NCBI GenBank assembly: GCA_949288455.1
Contig: CASEKF010000070.1
Location: forward strand, 1 to 45,268
Source: an uncultured bacterium
GTDB taxonomy: Bacteria; Vulcanimicrobiota; CADAWZ01
Length of the DNA stretch: 45,268 bases
Reading direction: 5' to 3'
In this document: positions 7,287 through 44,897 of the stretch, one piece after another
How the letters are laid out: every line of letters begins with the position of its first letter
How positions within the stretch are numbered: position 1 is the stretch's first letter
The notes under the pieces: generated by a model
Seen by the model: only the letters and a program-made list of their open reading frames with translations
The model's database searches: none
What the model was told of the DNA's origin: nothing
Position numbers and translations under genes: made by a program

Positions 7287-8396
7287 TTAAATTTGAGGTT
7301 GAACATAAAACAAATCGTTTTGCCCGTCTTCCAGAGAATTTTCCGAAGCGTATTCACGCTGACGCATAATATGCTCTTCATAACTCATTGTGTCTATAAT
7401 TTTCCCCGTTTGATCCCTAACGGGAAGCAGAAGAGCATATTCGGGAAACAGAGCTGAAAAGGTCAAGAGGTTGTATGAGTTAAAGTAGACGCCGCATATT
7501 GTGTTTGCCGCTATAATTACGGGCAGATAACAAAAGACGTAATAGACTGTGACAGCCGACGCCAGCGGCTGATCCGCTTGCGGCAAAGTTAATGCGAGAA
7601 TATTGGCCGGCATGATAAGAACGCTTCCGATAAGAGTAATAACGGCTCCCGCCGCAAAATTTAATAAAATACAGAGAAAAAAAGTAAAAAAAGCTTTTCC
7701 CTTTCTCGTCTTTGTCAGATTATATATTTTTTTTATGATTTCTATCGCTTTCTCGCCGTCAGGCGTTCTCAGAAATGCCGGAGCCGCCAGAATGTTCAAA
7801 AGGTTTAAAGCAGTCATTACGGTTAAGAAAATTAAAGATCCTGATATTAATACGATAACGGTAAATAACAATCCGTTATTTCCGTAATATTTTGGCTGAC
7901 CAAATATAAACGCCCATAAAATTATTGTGAAGATTATGGAGTATATTACTATCCTTAGCAGAATTAAGGAGTAATCGTAGGCTTTCGCCGAGCGCTTTTT
8001 ATAGAACATTCTCCATCCGATATTATTTTTCATAATTGCGTCGAGAACCATAAATTTGCCCAGCGCAGCGAGATATACGCTGATAGTCGGAATTATAATT
8101 ATTAGCAGAATCGTCAACGTAATTCCGAATATGACGGCCCCATGCTCCGGATTTAATATTTTTCCAACCGCATCGACAAACTCGGATATGGCGGTTATAA
8201 AATTTGCATATGATTCCATTCCTTGAGCCGGAGAAATTTTCTTAGGCATAGAGTTTAAATTTAACCCGAACGAGAACCCTGATAAAGCGACGATTATAAA
8301 GAAAAATGCCCATTTCGTTATATTAACGTTATTAAATAGAAGTTTTTTTGTTTGAATGTAAGCCGGAACCCACATATCCAAGGGGCTATTTTTCAT
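7287..8396 (-). CDS. Multi-pass membrane protein of unknown function
   Basis: 369 residues with about six hydrophobic segments (near residues 27-48, 90-118, 143-165, 178-203, 230-262 and 275-305) and a polar C-terminal tail of about 60 residues. I recognise no family with confidence; the arrangement resembles uncharacterised bacterial proteins with paired helices around a membrane-bound core. The start ATG is preceded by GGAG at good spacing. It is the last gene of an apparent minus-strand operon starting at the pilC-like gene, 47 bases after the stop of the long helical-repeat frame. Context suggests an inner-membrane partner of those proteins, but nothing in the sequence gives its activity. 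Confidence 0.7.
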   Translation of the reverse strand: MKNSPLDMWVPAYIQTKKLLFNNVNITKWAFFFIIVALSGFSFGLNLNSMPKKISPAQGMESYANFITAISEFVDAVGKILNPEHGAVIFGITLTILLIIIIPTISVYLAALGKFMVLDAIMKNNIGWRMFYKKRSAKAYDYSLILLRIVIYSIIFTIILWAFIFGQPKYYGNNGLLFTVIVLISGSLIFLTVMTALNLLNILAAPAFLRTPDGEKAIEIIKKIYNLTKTRKGKAFFTFFLCILLNFAAGAVITLIGSVLIMPANILALTLPQADQPLASAVTVYYVFCYLPVIIAANTICGVYFNSYNLLTFSALFPEYALLLPVRDQTGKIIDTMSYEEHIMRQREYASENSLEDGQNDLFYVQPQI

Positions 8397-8443: not shown

Positions 8444-10558
8444 TTAATTTTGGAATTGTATATTCCAAAGCTCGTTTATCAGCGTTACGAAATCAGATTT
8501 AGTTTCGGATAAAAGTCTTGTCCAGGTCTCTTCTCCGTTAACTTCGGAAAAATGGATTCTGTAGAGATCTATAAACTGCCGCGCGAAATCTGCGGTAAAT
8601 TTATCTTTATGTCCGAAGACCAGGAAGCGATGCAAAGTTCTTAATTTGGAAATATCGCTAAATAATTCCAAAAAGTTTTCCGGAGATAATATTTTTAGAG
8701 TGGACATAAGGTATGAACCGCGCGTTTTTCTATCCGCAAGGCCCGATGAAGCGCAGAATTCAATAAGAACTTTAGCGGTCATAAGAGCGTCTGTTTTTTG
8801 AGCCGCCTCAATATATTCCCGTTCAATATCTTCGTCGTAACATTCTTCCGCTTTATTTAAAATTGTTCTTATAGCTTTTAATTTTAGCTCTCCGTTCATT
8901 AAACAGCCGCATTTAGAAAGTTGTCTTACCGCTTTATTTCGTATGTCCACGTAATTTTCGCCCGCAGCGTTAGCTAAAATTGACGAAGCCCAGGCGTTTT
9001 TTCTGACGACCAGTCCGGCAGTAAGGTCTATAGCTTTTTCATAATTGATTGGCTGTATCTTTTGAGAAAGCGGTCTTAAAAGAAGAGGCTCGTCCGCGCT
9101 GATATGATGCAGTATATCCAAAGCGTCGGATATTTTTGAATCGTCGTTTTCTTTCATCATTAAAGAGACGAATTCCTCAAGCAGTACGTCGAGACGTTTA
9201 TTTTCAAACGACGGAGTTCGAGAAGTTACGGGAGATTTCAGAGATAAAAGATTTGATAGCGCTCGGCATGAAGCTCCCTGAGATCTGTTTAATAAAGCGT
9301 CTTTAGCAAACGCTATCGCATATTTTTTATAAATGCCGGCCGAGTTGAAATTCAGAAAACCGTTTCTTTTTAGGGCTTCAAACGCTTCCATTTTTAATAT
9401 ATCGAGACAACTGCCGTAATAAAGCGAGAATAAAAGAGCCTTTTCAGCCGCAGAGAGGGCAGAGGCAAAATCTTCTCTTTTTGCGGATAAAACCGCCTTC
9501 GCCGCAGGTATGATTTTATCAAACGGTTTTCTCCCTGATTTTAGCATATTAAAATCAAGAAGCTTTATATACTTTTCGCAGTTAACGCCGTTCTTAATTA
9601 ATTTAGAACAATAGTCAAATTTTTCTTCCGAATTCCAAGAAGCTTTAAGATAAGTTAAAATATCCTCTTCGACCGGATAAAGCAATTCGCTTTCGATATC
9701 TTCCGTATACGACTCGCAGGTTCGGGGCTTTTCTTCCGTTTCGTCTTCATATTTGCTTAATTCCGAGATTGTCATCAGCAGAGAAGCAGAAGGGCGTTTT
9801 TGCTTCGCGGAGCCAAGCATTGGAAGCAGATCCATCGCTCTTGCGGAGACGACTTCGGGAAGTTCCGAATCTGACATGAACACTCTAAGCTCGCGCCTGA
9901 GCATGTCTTTCATAACAAAACCTTCGGAAAAATATTCCCGTATATAATCTTTGATATCAAGGATATCCTGCTCAGTTCCTTGTTTTATCAGTTCAAGCAT
10001 AAGCTCCAGAGTCTTGGAAACAAAAGATGCCTGCAGCTCTTCTTGAGGAGTTTCTTTAATTTTTCTTAAATTGGAAGCTATCGTATCGCTTGGAGTTTCT
10101 TCAGTCTTTCGTTTTATTTCTGTTTTGTCTATGTCCGGCCTGGTATTTGCGGTAGGTATAACTACGGTTTCCAAAGTGCGGAGAGATTCGTCGTATTTGA
10201 GAATATCTTTGGAATATGGCGCCTTGCGGATCCGGGGAGGGGACGAATTGAGGTTATATGACGGCAAAAGCGATTTTTGTTTTTCTAATTCATTTGAATG
10301 GGCCAAAGACGTCTGTTCTTTGCTAAGGTTTTCCGCTTCCGGAACCAAAGACGTCTGTTCTTTGCTAAGGTTTTCCGCTTCCGGGGCCAAAGACGTTTGT
10401 TCTTTAACGAGGTTTTCCGCTTCCGGGGCTAAAGACGTTTGTTCTTTAACGAGGTTTTCCGCTTCCGGGGCTAAAGACGTTTGTTCTTTGATAAGGTTTT
10501 CCGCTTCCGGGGCCAAAGACGTCTGTTCTTTGCTAAGGTTTTCCGCTTCCGGAGCCAA
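8444..10558 (-). CDS. Alpha-helical-repeat protein with 14-residue tandem repeats (probable 3' part of a frameshifted gene)
   Basis: 704 codons from a TTG. It opens with six near-identical 14-residue units (APEAENLSKEQTSL type), then a Ser/Lys/Pro-rich linker (about 90-180), then a long all-helical region (about 190-704) with HEAT/ARM-like spacing. No signal peptide or catalytic motif is seen. There is no ATG and no purine-rich ribosome site near the TTG. The same frame stays open upstream to 10603, inside the A13 run that ends the preceding gene, and the residues just before the TTG (TKQTS) continue the repeat pattern. The natural product is therefore probably a fusion with the upstream frame through a -1 shift (about 969 residues). 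Role inferred to be a scaffold, perhaps with the PilC-like protein. Confidence 0.75.
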   Translation of the reverse strand: MAPEAENLSKEQTSLAPEAENLIKEQTSLAPEAENLVKEQTSLAPEAENLVKEQTSLAPEAENLSKEQTSLVPEAENLSKEQTSLAHSNELEKQKSLLPSYNLNSSPPRIRKAPYSKDILKYDESLRTLETVVIPTANTRPDIDKTEIKRKTEETPSDTIASNLRKIKETPQEELQASFVSKTLELMLELIKQGTEQDILDIKDYIREYFSEGFVMKDMLRRELRVFMSDSELPEVVSARAMDLLPMLGSAKQKRPSASLLMTISELSKYEDETEEKPRTCESYTEDIESELLYPVEEDILTYLKASWNSEEKFDYCSKLIKNGVNCEKYIKLLDFNMLKSGRKPFDKIIPAAKAVLSAKREDFASALSAAEKALLFSLYYGSCLDILKMEAFEALKRNGFLNFNSAGIYKKYAIAFAKDALLNRSQGASCRALSNLLSLKSPVTSRTPSFENKRLDVLLEEFVSLMMKENDDSKISDALDILHHISADEPLLLRPLSQKIQPINYEKAIDLTAGLVVRKNAWASSILANAAGENYVDIRNKAVRQLSKCGCLMNGELKLKAIRTILNKAEECYDEDIEREYIEAAQKTDALMTAKVLIEFCASSGLADRKTRGSYLMSTLKILSPENFLELFSDISKLRTLHRFLVFGHKDKFTADFARQFIDLYRIHFSEVNGEETWTRLLSETKSDFVTLINELWNIQFQN

Positions 10559-10559
10559 A
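10308..10559 (-). repeat. Six tandem 42-bp repeats (in-frame, 14 residues each)
   Basis: Six units begin at 10308, 10350, 10392, 10434, 10476 and 10518. The units at 10392 and 10434 are identical; the others differ at a few positions, altering one residue (S, V or I) after AENL and A/V at the unit start. The length is a multiple of three, so copy-number change would lengthen or shorten the linker without a frameshift. Confidence 0.95.
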
Positions 10560-10599
10560 GACGTCTGTTTTGTTGCGGATTTCGATATATTTCTATTGA

Positions 10600-11352
10600 T
10601 TATTTTTTTTTTTTTGATTCTTCTTCCCGCTTTTTTTGCATGTCGATTTTTATTTGTTCAAATCTTGACATGCGTCTTTCTTCTTTAGACTTACGTTCTT
10701 CGGATGCGGTTTCTTCAGATGACGGCCCGTTTTCTTTTTCGCCTGATTTGTCATCTTGAGATTTTAGATGTTCAAGAACAGAAATATCTTTTCCGGCTTT
10801 TTTTAGAAAGTCGAGCATATTTGCGTTCGAGGCATATTCTTCTTTGCAAAGAAAGGCTAGAAGTTCTTCTGAAATTTCAGATGTATAATTTTCTATCAAT
10901 TTTACGGCGGACGCTACTCCGTAAGGATCTTGATTTTTTACGATTAGTTTAGCGATTTTTGCGAAGGCGTTGGGATTTTTAGTAAGCTCGTATCTATATA
11001 GAGTTTCATTTAAGGCCCATGCCAAAGGACTTAGAGCCAATTCGTGTTTTTCGGCCCTGAAAAAGCCCATTTTGGCCAAAGCTTTTCTGGCTCTCTGCCT
11101 GGGAACGCCCGGAGAGTTGTTCCTCATGTAGCTGAATAGACTGCGTCTAAGCATTTCTGAAAAACGTCGGTCTTGAATTTCGGAAAGAAAGTCAAGCGGT
11201 AATTTCGTTTTTAAAACGTAGAAACATGCCGCTTTTGCCGAAGCAAAAATTAAATCCGGATTGCCGGAGGTTATATTATATTGAAGATAAAGCTTTATGC
11301 CTTCAATGTCTTTTTTTAGAATAAGATCTTCAAATTTTGTATTGTCGAACAT
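10600..11352 (-). CDS. Helical-repeat protein, probable 5' part of a frameshifted gene
   Basis: 250 residues, wholly alpha-helical in pattern. Residues 1-175 look like HEAT-type helix pairs. About 180-250 is a highly charged tail rich in Glu, Lys and Ser, ending in KKKK at the A13 run. No signal peptide or enzyme motif. The ATG at 11352 is used because CGGAG lies seven bases before it; a GTG two codons upstream would be too close. It begins 37 bases after the stop of the pilC-like gene, so it is co-transcribed. The charged tail would serve as a hinge if joined to the downstream frame. Function unknown. Confidence 0.75.
   Translation of the reverse strand: MFDNTKFEDLILKKDIEGIKLYLQYNITSGNPDLIFASAKAACFYVLKTKLPLDFLSEIQDRRFSEMLRRSLFSYMRNNSPGVPRQRARKALAKMGFFRAEKHELALSPLAWALNETLYRYELTKNPNAFAKIAKLIVKNQDPYGVASAVKLIENYTSEISEELLAFLCKEEYASNANMLDFLKKAGKDISVLEHLKSQDDKSGEKENGPSSEETASEERKSKEERRMSRFEQIKIDMQKKREEESKKKK
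10603..10615 (-). promoter_or_regulatory. A13 slippery run at the junction of two frames
   Basis: Thirteen consecutive A on the coding strand, directly followed by TAA, which ends the upstream frame. Rereading one A gives an open frame that continues for 719 more codons. Such a run is a classic site for transcriptional slippage, -1 ribosomal shifting or phase variation. It is also a classic site for a homopolymer sequencing error. Confidence 0.8.
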
Positions 11353-11388: not shown

Positions 11389-12633
11389 TTACATTCCGAA
11401 GTTCTGTATAATCTGATAGATGGGAAGCATAACGGCCAAGACTATAGAGAGTACGAACGCGCTCATGAATACTATCATGAAGGGTTCCATAAGCGTAAGA
11501 GATTTTTGAAGCGCGGAAGTTAAATCAAGTTCCAGCATTTTTGCGGCGTCCTTAAGACATGCCGAAATGTCTCCCGTAGCTTCGCCCGCGGCTATAAGAT
11601 TAACGCTGGTTAAGGGCATAAGTCCGGTTCTTTTCATGGCGTCGGCAATAAAGATACCTTCGCTTACGGCGTCTATTATGGGATAAACTAATTTTTGTTC
11701 CATAAAGCTGTTGTTTGCTATTTTTCCTGAGATAAAGACGGCTTCTTGAATCGGCACTCCGTATTTTATGAGAAGACTGAGCGATCGGCAAAATTGTTCG
11801 GCATAGCGGCATCTGTTAATATATCCTACTATAGGCAGTCTCAGTTTAATAAAATCATAATTATATTTTCCTACCGGAGTAGATATGTAGCATACGATTT
11901 GATAAGCCGCGAATATAACCATAACTAACGTTATGATTACAAGATAAGGATTGCACAGATAATCCATAAAAACCATAAGAGCTTGAGTTATCCAGGGAAG
12001 TTTGACGTTTAAATCGGCTATGACGACTACTATTTTAGGAAGCACGAAGACGAATAATCCTATATTGAGAACCAAAGACAGAAAAAACGTAATAGTCGGA
12101 TAAGTCATGGCGGCGGATATTTTTTTCTTCAGAGAAACTTCTTTTTCAAGATCCTCAGCCAGAGATTTAAACGCGTCGGCTATCGCGCCGGTGTTCATTC
12201 CCAAAGCTACTACGCCTCTGTAATTAGCCGTGAAAATATCCGGATATTTTTCCATGGATTTATCCAGGCGTTTGCCTTCTTTAATGCCTTTCAGCAAGTA
12301 TTGAAGAGGTTCTTTTAACGGGTCTTTTCTGTCTGCCGAATCGATAATAACATTAAAGGCTTCGGCTATCGTGATCCCTGCCGCCAGCAAAGTCGCCAGC
12401 TGCCTGGTAGCTATCGCCAGGTTCTCCGAATAGTCTCGTTTTCTGAAAAAGCTCGCGAAGTTTTTAACGGACGCGCGGATATTATGCGAAGTTTCCGTTA
12501 TCTCTTCAATTGATATAATAGAATACCCCTGCGTTAAGAGGGAATCTATAATTTTTTGCTTTTCAGGAGCTTCTCTTACTATTTTTTGCTTTTTTCCATC
12601 GGGAGCAACGCTTTGTATGACAAAAGTCGGCAT
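11389..12633 (-). CDS. Type IV pilus/type II secretion inner-membrane platform protein (PilC/GspF family)
   Basis: 414 residues with the two T2SSF domains of PilC/GspF (about 65-190 and 270-400). Each has the family's helical pattern, such as LATLLAAGITIAEAF and LSLLIKYGVPIQEAV, with hydrophobic segments near 170-200, 220-245 and 380-405. The N-terminal 60 residues match the usual cytoplasmic lead-in (GYSIISIEEI). Family members sit in the inner membrane and link the assembly ATPase to pilin subunits. No PilB/GspE ATPase, pilin or secretin gene is nearby, so its system must be encoded elsewhere or be reduced. It heads the minus-strand operon with the helical-repeat and membrane proteins. The ribosome site is weak (GGA ten bases before ATG). 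Confidence 0.88.
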   Translation of the reverse strand: MPTFVIQSVAPDGKKQKIVREAPEKQKIIDSLLTQGYSIISIEEITETSHNIRASVKNFASFFRKRDYSENLAIATRQLATLLAAGITIAEAFNVIIDSADRKDPLKEPLQYLLKGIKEGKRLDKSMEKYPDIFTANYRGVVALGMNTGAIADAFKSLAEDLEKEVSLKKKISAAMTYPTITFFLSLVLNIGLFVFVLPKIVVVIADLNVKLPWITQALMVFMDYLCNPYLVIITLVMVIFAAYQIVCYISTPVGKYNYDFIKLRLPIVGYINRCRYAEQFCRSLSLLIKYGVPIQEAVFISGKIANNSFMEQKLVYPIIDAVSEGIFIADAMKRTGLMPLTSVNLIAAGEATGDISACLKDAAKMLELDLTSALQKSLTLMEPFMIVFMSAFVLSIVLAVMLPIYQIIQNFGM

Positions 12634-43817: not shown

Positions 43818-44897
43818 ATGAATAAAACTGCGGCCCTATTAGCGGTTTTTATGTTTTTTGCGCTAAGTTTGTTCGGTTGTTCCGATAAGAAAGTTTCAGA
43901 ATCGGAAGAGTCGAAAAAAATAAAATCGACCGTTTCGGGAAGAGTCGCGTTAAATAAAGTTTACGGTTTTATTGATAAAAACGGCAAACAGGCGATAGAC
44001 GTTAAATTCAGCGAGGCTAAATCTTTTTCTGAAGGTTTGGCCGCCGTTGAGCTTGATTCATCTTGGGGGTTTTCAGATAAAAGCGGGAATATCATAATAG
44101 AGCCCGAATACGACGACGCAAGGAATTTTTCCGAAGGTTTAGCTCCCGTCAGAAAAGGCGGACGTTGGTTTTACGTTGATAAAGACGGAACTTCCGCTTT
44201 AGATATCGAGGGCATGACCGACGCTTATTCTTTTAAGGAAGGTCTTGCAAAGGTTTTTATAAATGATTCTTGGCATTTTATCGATAGGAAGGGCAATTTT
44301 ATAATCGATCTTGACAAGAACGTTTATCCTTTGGATTTTTCTGAAGGTTTAGCGCCCGTTAAAATTAACGATCTTTGGGGTTTTATCGATAAAAAGGGCA
44401 AGATGGTTATAGAGCCTCGTTTCTATTATAAACCTTGGGTTAGAAATCTTAGTTTTTCGGAAGGTTTTTTCCCTGCGTTTTCGCTTTCCAAATGGGGTTT
44501 TATCGATAAAAAGGGCAAGTTTGAGATAGAAAGGAAATATGATTTCGCCTTAAATTTTTCGGAAGGGTTGGCGGCGGTAAAATTAAACGGCAAGTGGGGC
44601 TATATCGATAAGAAAGGTAATTTTGCGGTTTCTCCCGAATATGACTTGGCTTTAAAATTTTCCGAGGGTTTAGCCGCGGTTATGTCTAACGGCAAGTGGG
44701 GCTATATCGATAAAAAGGGCGGCACGGTTATAGAGCCTTCGTTTGATCTGGCTTTTAATTTTTCCGACGGAGCCGCCGTAATAGTTCTTAACGAAAAATA
44801 CGGTTTTATAGATAAGTCGGGAAAATTTATTTATCCCGCCGAACTTAATTTCGCGGATAATTTTTCGGAAGGCTTGGCCGCAGTCGTCCCGGAGTAA
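43818..44897 (+). CDS. WG-repeat lipoprotein
   Basis: 359 residues. Signal with FGC (lipidated Cys21), then nine repeats of about 35 residues with the core WGFIDKKGKxVIEPxYDxAxxFSEGLAAV, the WG repeat (KWG motif). Repeats three and four are more divergent (WFYVDK, WHFIDR). Such proteins form beta-propeller-like or solenoid surfaces of uncertain role. ATG follows AAGGGAG. Confidence 0.9.
   Translation: MNKTAALLAVFMFFALSLFGCSDKKVSESEESKKIKSTVSGRVALNKVYGFIDKNGKQAIDVKFSEAKSFSEGLAAVELDSSWGFSDKSGNIIIEPEYDDARNFSEGLAPVRKGGRWFYVDKDGTSALDIEGMTDAYSFKEGLAKVFINDSWHFIDRKGNFIIDLDKNVYPLDFSEGLAPVKINDLWGFIDKKGKMVIEPRFYYKPWVRNLSFSEGFFPAFSLSKWGFIDKKGKFEIERKYDFALNFSEGLAAVKLNGKWGYIDKKGNFAVSPEYDLALKFSEGLAAVMSNGKWGYIDKKGGTVIEPSFDLAFNFSDGAAVIVLNEKYGFIDKSGKFIYPAELNFADNFSEGLAAVVPE

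Follow-up and report, generated by a model that had tools for sequence, protein, structure and literature searches.

The minus strand of the DNA analysed here, a stretch of 45,268 nucleotides referred to as the window, carries two consecutive reading frames that meet at a run of 13 A residues. Comparison with related sequences well supports the view that both frames derive from one ancestral two-domain gene of gut bacteria. The interruption of this gene is very probably unprogrammed: either an indel has arisen recently or the homopolymer was miscounted in the assembly. An earlier note on this DNA had joined the two frames across the A run and had proposed that the cell makes a short and a fused protein in a fixed or switchable ratio. 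The fusion is supported by the present analysis, whereas a fixed or switchable ratio was found to be without support. Likewise, the terms "programmed" and "switchable" were not retained, since the tract is absent from the relatives, no stimulator was found and other A runs within genes lie in intact frames.

The A13 tract and the two frames

The features of the locus are collected in Table 1. The minus-strand junction reads GAAGAATC, followed by exactly 13 A and TAATCAATAG, with the TAA of the upstream frame at 10602–10600. Re-reading of the coordinates and counts reproduced what had been described for the upstream frame, i.e., its extent, its KKKK end and the TAA immediately after the A run. 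The sequence GGAG precedes the ATG of this frame. The −1 frame read from 10603 comprises 719 codons including the overlap and is open as far as its stop at 8444, confirming on the sequence a fused length of ∼969 residues for both halves together.

Table 1. Coordinates of the interrupted gene, its parts and its neighbours in the window
Feature	Coordinates	Strand	Description
Upstream neighbour	11389..12633	-	T2SS GspF / type IV pilus PilC-like inner-membrane protein; 36 bp away
5' part of gene	10600..11352	-	250 codons, ATG 11352, ends SKKKK*
5' part layout			Predicted helical N-terminal domain (~residues 1-190), then charged low-complexity tail
A13 tract	10603..10615 (+ coordinates)	-	Abuts TAA of upstream frame; frame-break site
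3' part of gene	8444..10602	-	Open -1 frame; linker repeats, then predicted helical-repeat C-terminal domain
Linker repeat	10300..10569	-	6.4 copies of 42 bp (14 residues, TSLAPEAENLSKEQ), in frame
C-terminal ARM/HEAT-like helical domain (predicted)	8447..10126	-	560 residues; identity to relatives, AlphaFold2 and Foldseek
Downstream neighbour	7287..8396	-	DUF7544 membrane protein; 47 bp away

The downstream frame had been described as lacking an ATG, which holds for its 5' portion: the first two ATGs are located at 10000 (codon 202) and 9913, with none farther 5', and both fall within the conserved C-domain. The TTG at 10558 is not preceded by a Shine-Dalgarno-like sequence, in agreement with the earlier description, and sits within the 42-bp repeat array, whose beginning (10569) is upstream of the TTG. 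A strong independent start, which had been named as the observation that would speak against fusion, was sought, and no credible one was found at the 5' end of the frame. It is thus very improbable that the gene has undergone true fission, with the halves made as separate proteins and the second begun at an internal codon. Such a start could be provided by ATG 9913, which has GAAGG seven bases upstream, but translation from it would begin within the conserved C-domain, and TTG 10558, the nearest 5' start, has no ribosome site and belongs to the repeat array. When the residues encoded by the 15 codons that follow the A run were aligned directly to the relative G002, 791 of 2000 shuffles scored as well, so that the match lacks significance; hence, these codons alone are no proof of fusion.

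One gene in an order-restricted family

A search for the family in 149 genomes of the phylum revealed five genomes in all and no others. Within this set the family occurred in one order only, its other carriers being four genomes, three of which share the GTDB family of the window while the fourth belongs to a different family. A scan of the genome contigs identified only three family members, in a horse-faeces MAG (G001) and two RUG-named MAGs. None of the genomes searched represented another member of the species or the genus, and no closer copies were found in plasmid DNA (DNA search) or in viral contigs (protein search). In three relatives, two from the same GTDB family and one from another family within the order, the gene is a single unbroken ORF of 1000 (G002), 1005 (G003) or 942 (G004) codons, so that the domain of the downstream frame lies within the same ORF in homologues, as in tssM1-type cases. 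When the family profile was compared with the window, positions 1–240 corresponded to the upstream frame and 252–995 to the downstream frame. The upstream frame also aligned with residues 1–240 of the single-ORF relatives. The N-domain showed 46–47% identity to G002 and G003, and the C-domain 48–49% (ungapped columns) to three relatives. The single-ORF relatives and contiguous profile matches, along with the absence of a credible separate start, bear out the earlier proposal that the two frames are one fused gene.

In G001 a TAG codon replaces a conserved Tyr of the gene (L012:1775-1777, on the same contig as L048; IYKK*SLAFAKNALL), in a frame that is otherwise open. This TAG may be an independent interruption, in which case the gene may be expendable in the family, or the G001 MAG may contain an error of its own.

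The genomic neighbourhood is also shared in part. The upstream neighbour matched Pfam T2SSF (E 1.7e-43) and was GspF-like in NCBIfam. A GspF/PilC-like gene is positioned directly upstream in G002 and G003 and is also present on the G001 fragment at the contig end, and in G002 a DUF7544 gene is likewise found near the locus. The link of the family to the GspF/PilC-like gene is thus seen in the closest relatives. As regards annotation, two "hypothetical proteins" would represent one protein of an order-restricted family, and split ORFs would mislead. Elsewhere in the window, ORF 43818-44897 harbors a 102-bp tandem repeat (44536-44718) whose consensus encodes WGYIDKK-like (WG-repeat) units.

Origin of the frame break

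Judged by sequence, the tract is located in a repeat-rich, low-complexity and presumably flexible linker that differs completely among the relatives. The 42-bp copies are near-identical, and the relatives carry unrelated repeats at the same place, e.g., EKTEPVA/S in G003. Unrelated linker repeats between conserved flanking domains indicate that the repeats turn over fast. Of the eight columns that vary among the repeats, five are third positions when read in the downstream frame, although the numbers are small. The upstream frame aligns with G002 through QIKxDMQKK, ending ∼10 residues before the tract, and the REEESKKKK segment is extra relative to G002. The earlier note had suggested comparing the run length in related genomes; this comparison showed that A13 is absent from all of them, the longest A run within the gene in the four relatives being 7. 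The short runs in the relatives and the extra segment together suggest that the tract is new in this lineage.

The ancestral gene would have encoded two domains, helical at the N-terminus and ARM/HEAT-like at the C-terminus, joined by a fast-evolving linker. Within that linker, consecutive AAA codons for Lys have probably grown into A13 in this lineage, and the assembled length of the tract would place the two halves out of frame without any programming. If A13 is real, slippage of RNA polymerase could allow a minority of mRNAs to be read through to the full-length protein, and the length of the tract would be expected to change often in the population. In E. coli and Buchnera, insertions during transcription increase exponentially with the length of the A/T run (PMC5574713). 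Since RNA polymerase slips on such A runs by precedent, some full-length protein is likely if A13 is real, and the cell would then probably make mostly the 250-residue N-terminal domain together with some full-length protein.

Features of dedicated recoding were evaluated at the junction. For -1 ribosomal frameshifting of the dnaX type, the A run is present, but neither a structural nor a Shine-Dalgarno-like stimulator was found: the RNA downstream of the tract is no more structured than shuffled sequences (z -0.19), and the upstream GGGAAGAAG is, by eye, at best a weak Shine-Dalgarno-like match. The slippery site expected of programmed recoding is not conserved among the four relatives (longest run 7). 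It is improbable that the tract has been kept by selection, through recoding or phase variation, for two products at a set or switchable ratio. Such selection would be consistent with a break in the linker between two domains, so that both products could fold, and has a precedent in tssM1, where both products are needed (PMC4256274). However, A13 is absent from every relative, no stimulator was found near the tract, the linker is also the site most tolerant of neutral low-complexity growth and the case rests on one genome only. Still more doubtful is the idea of A13 as a selected expression switch, next to a gene of type II/IV secretion kind, that would set or vary the ratio of free N-domain to full-length protein and, by translational polarity, also act on the DUF7544 gene. 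Since the relatives have the gene unbroken, the run has most likely either slipped recently or been miscounted, and a built-in switch is not favoured.

The A13 tract was also viewed against the other A runs of the genome. Markov models of the window predicted ∼4–17 A runs of at least 13 in 2.13 Mb and four were observed, so that A13 by itself is no surprise. All 30 A runs of at least 10 in the genome were looked at, along with 30 of the ∼150 A9 runs. The A13 described here was the only run of at least 12 found in coding DNA, other runs of that length being intergenic, and the only gene-breaking one among the runs of at least 10. An A11 run (L018) and two A10 runs (L019 and L035) are present within long intact ORFs, the A11 at G000:C7:19148-19158 in an intact frame of 525 codons. 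At least 13 of the 30 A9 runs examined lie within open frames and none of the 30 breaks one. Another locus, L029, at first resembled a second poly-A break but was rejected, as it proved to be the leader, not translated, ahead of a TetR-like gene that has a start of its own. Given the A9–A11 runs in intact frames, poly-A frame breaks are not a general feature of this genome. That the one in-gene run of at least 12 lies exactly where the one break occurs indicates that the tract itself is the cause.

Long homopolymers are classic sites of indel miscalls, and no part of an assembly is less reliable than runs of this length. A miscount, in which case the gene of the cell would be an intact single frame and the break without biology, is a substantial possibility, though short of an even chance. 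It would agree with the intact gene in the relatives, with the otherwise clean sequence of both halves and with an assembly in 70 contigs. On the other hand, two A14 runs are reported elsewhere in the same assembly, indicating that 13 is no length ceiling, and a tract this long would be expected to vary truly within a population. It is rather likely that the tract is hypermutable and that replication slippage within it has recently produced an indel. Chances are about evenly balanced that such a real indel has left the gene off or leaky, with slippage in transcription rescuing a minor share of full-length product, like the poly-A frameshifts of endosymbionts. In favour of a real indel, the break falls exactly at the only in-gene run of at least 12 found, no other damage was seen across 719 codons, and a precedent is available from Blochmannia and Buchnera (PMC3017870). 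The TAG of G001 would also fit an expendable gene. In contrast to the situation in endosymbionts, the runs examined included no further poly-A break. The 719 downstream codons contain no other stop, and the C-domain has accumulated 41 lineage changes as against 68 in G001, showing no acceleration. A break of recent date, a full-length product that is still expressed and selected, or a miscount would each agree with these observations and with the third-position variation of the linker repeats, which do not tell them apart.

Predicted protein and comparison with known systems

Structural modelling predicted two all-helical domains parted by the low-complexity linker. The AlphaFold2 models of the N-domain and C-domain, both based on shallow alignments, were all helical with pLDDT values of 78.8 and 73.5, respectively. 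In the upstream frame, pLDDT was mostly 80–96 for residues 1–190 and below 50 for residues 195–228. No family above the cut-off was obtained for the split protein in Pfam and NCBIfam, and a sequence search of solved structures returned no match worth naming. Foldseek gave no significant match for the N-domain. The C-domain resembles the ARM/HEAT alpha-solenoids in that its model is all helical and its best Foldseek matches are armadillo/HEAT proteins. It differs from them in lacking a family match at the curated cut-off and in its low TM-scores, only ∼0.2–0.3; HEAT_2 was detected in the relatives at E 0.04, below the cut-off, and no such match was obtained for the window protein. The low TM-scores and the lack of a curated family match limit the ARM/HEAT assignment to class only. 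As the GspF/PilC-like gene lies so close upstream on the same strand, the protein is a candidate scaffold for secretion or pilus machinery, which is a reasonable guess and no more.

The kind of event described here is already known; the gene is new. In Citrobacter rodentium tssM1, the shortened frame has an A11 run close to its end, and extra A's in the mRNA lead to 20–25% of extended product (PMC4256274). The present gene is similar in being interrupted just past an A run, A11 in tssM1 and A13 here, in that extra A's in the mRNA would restore a long 3' frame, and in having no nearby stimulator of ribosomal frameshifting (PMC4256274). As is typical of the tssM1 type, where the stretch is some 9 A or longer, the two frames here meet at A residues in unbroken succession. 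In tssM1, however, both products, their ratio and the need for them were shown by experiment, while the present case is known from DNA, where a miscount is possible. The likeness to Blochmannia and Buchnera lies in a single poly-A indel within an otherwise intact gene (PMC3017870). Their genomes are very AT-rich, with more than 100 in-gene A runs of at least 9 and several such genes (PMC3017870), whereas the window has 42% GC and only a single gene of this kind came to light. Should the tract prove both real and slippery, it would provide a further example of poly-A slippage rescuing a frameshifted gene, beyond the known endosymbionts and enterobacteria. Similar to the poly-A tract of Listeria inlA, A13 would be a hypermutable tract altering the frame, but it is located mid-gene in a linker, whereas that of inlA is at the 5' end (PMC2831843).
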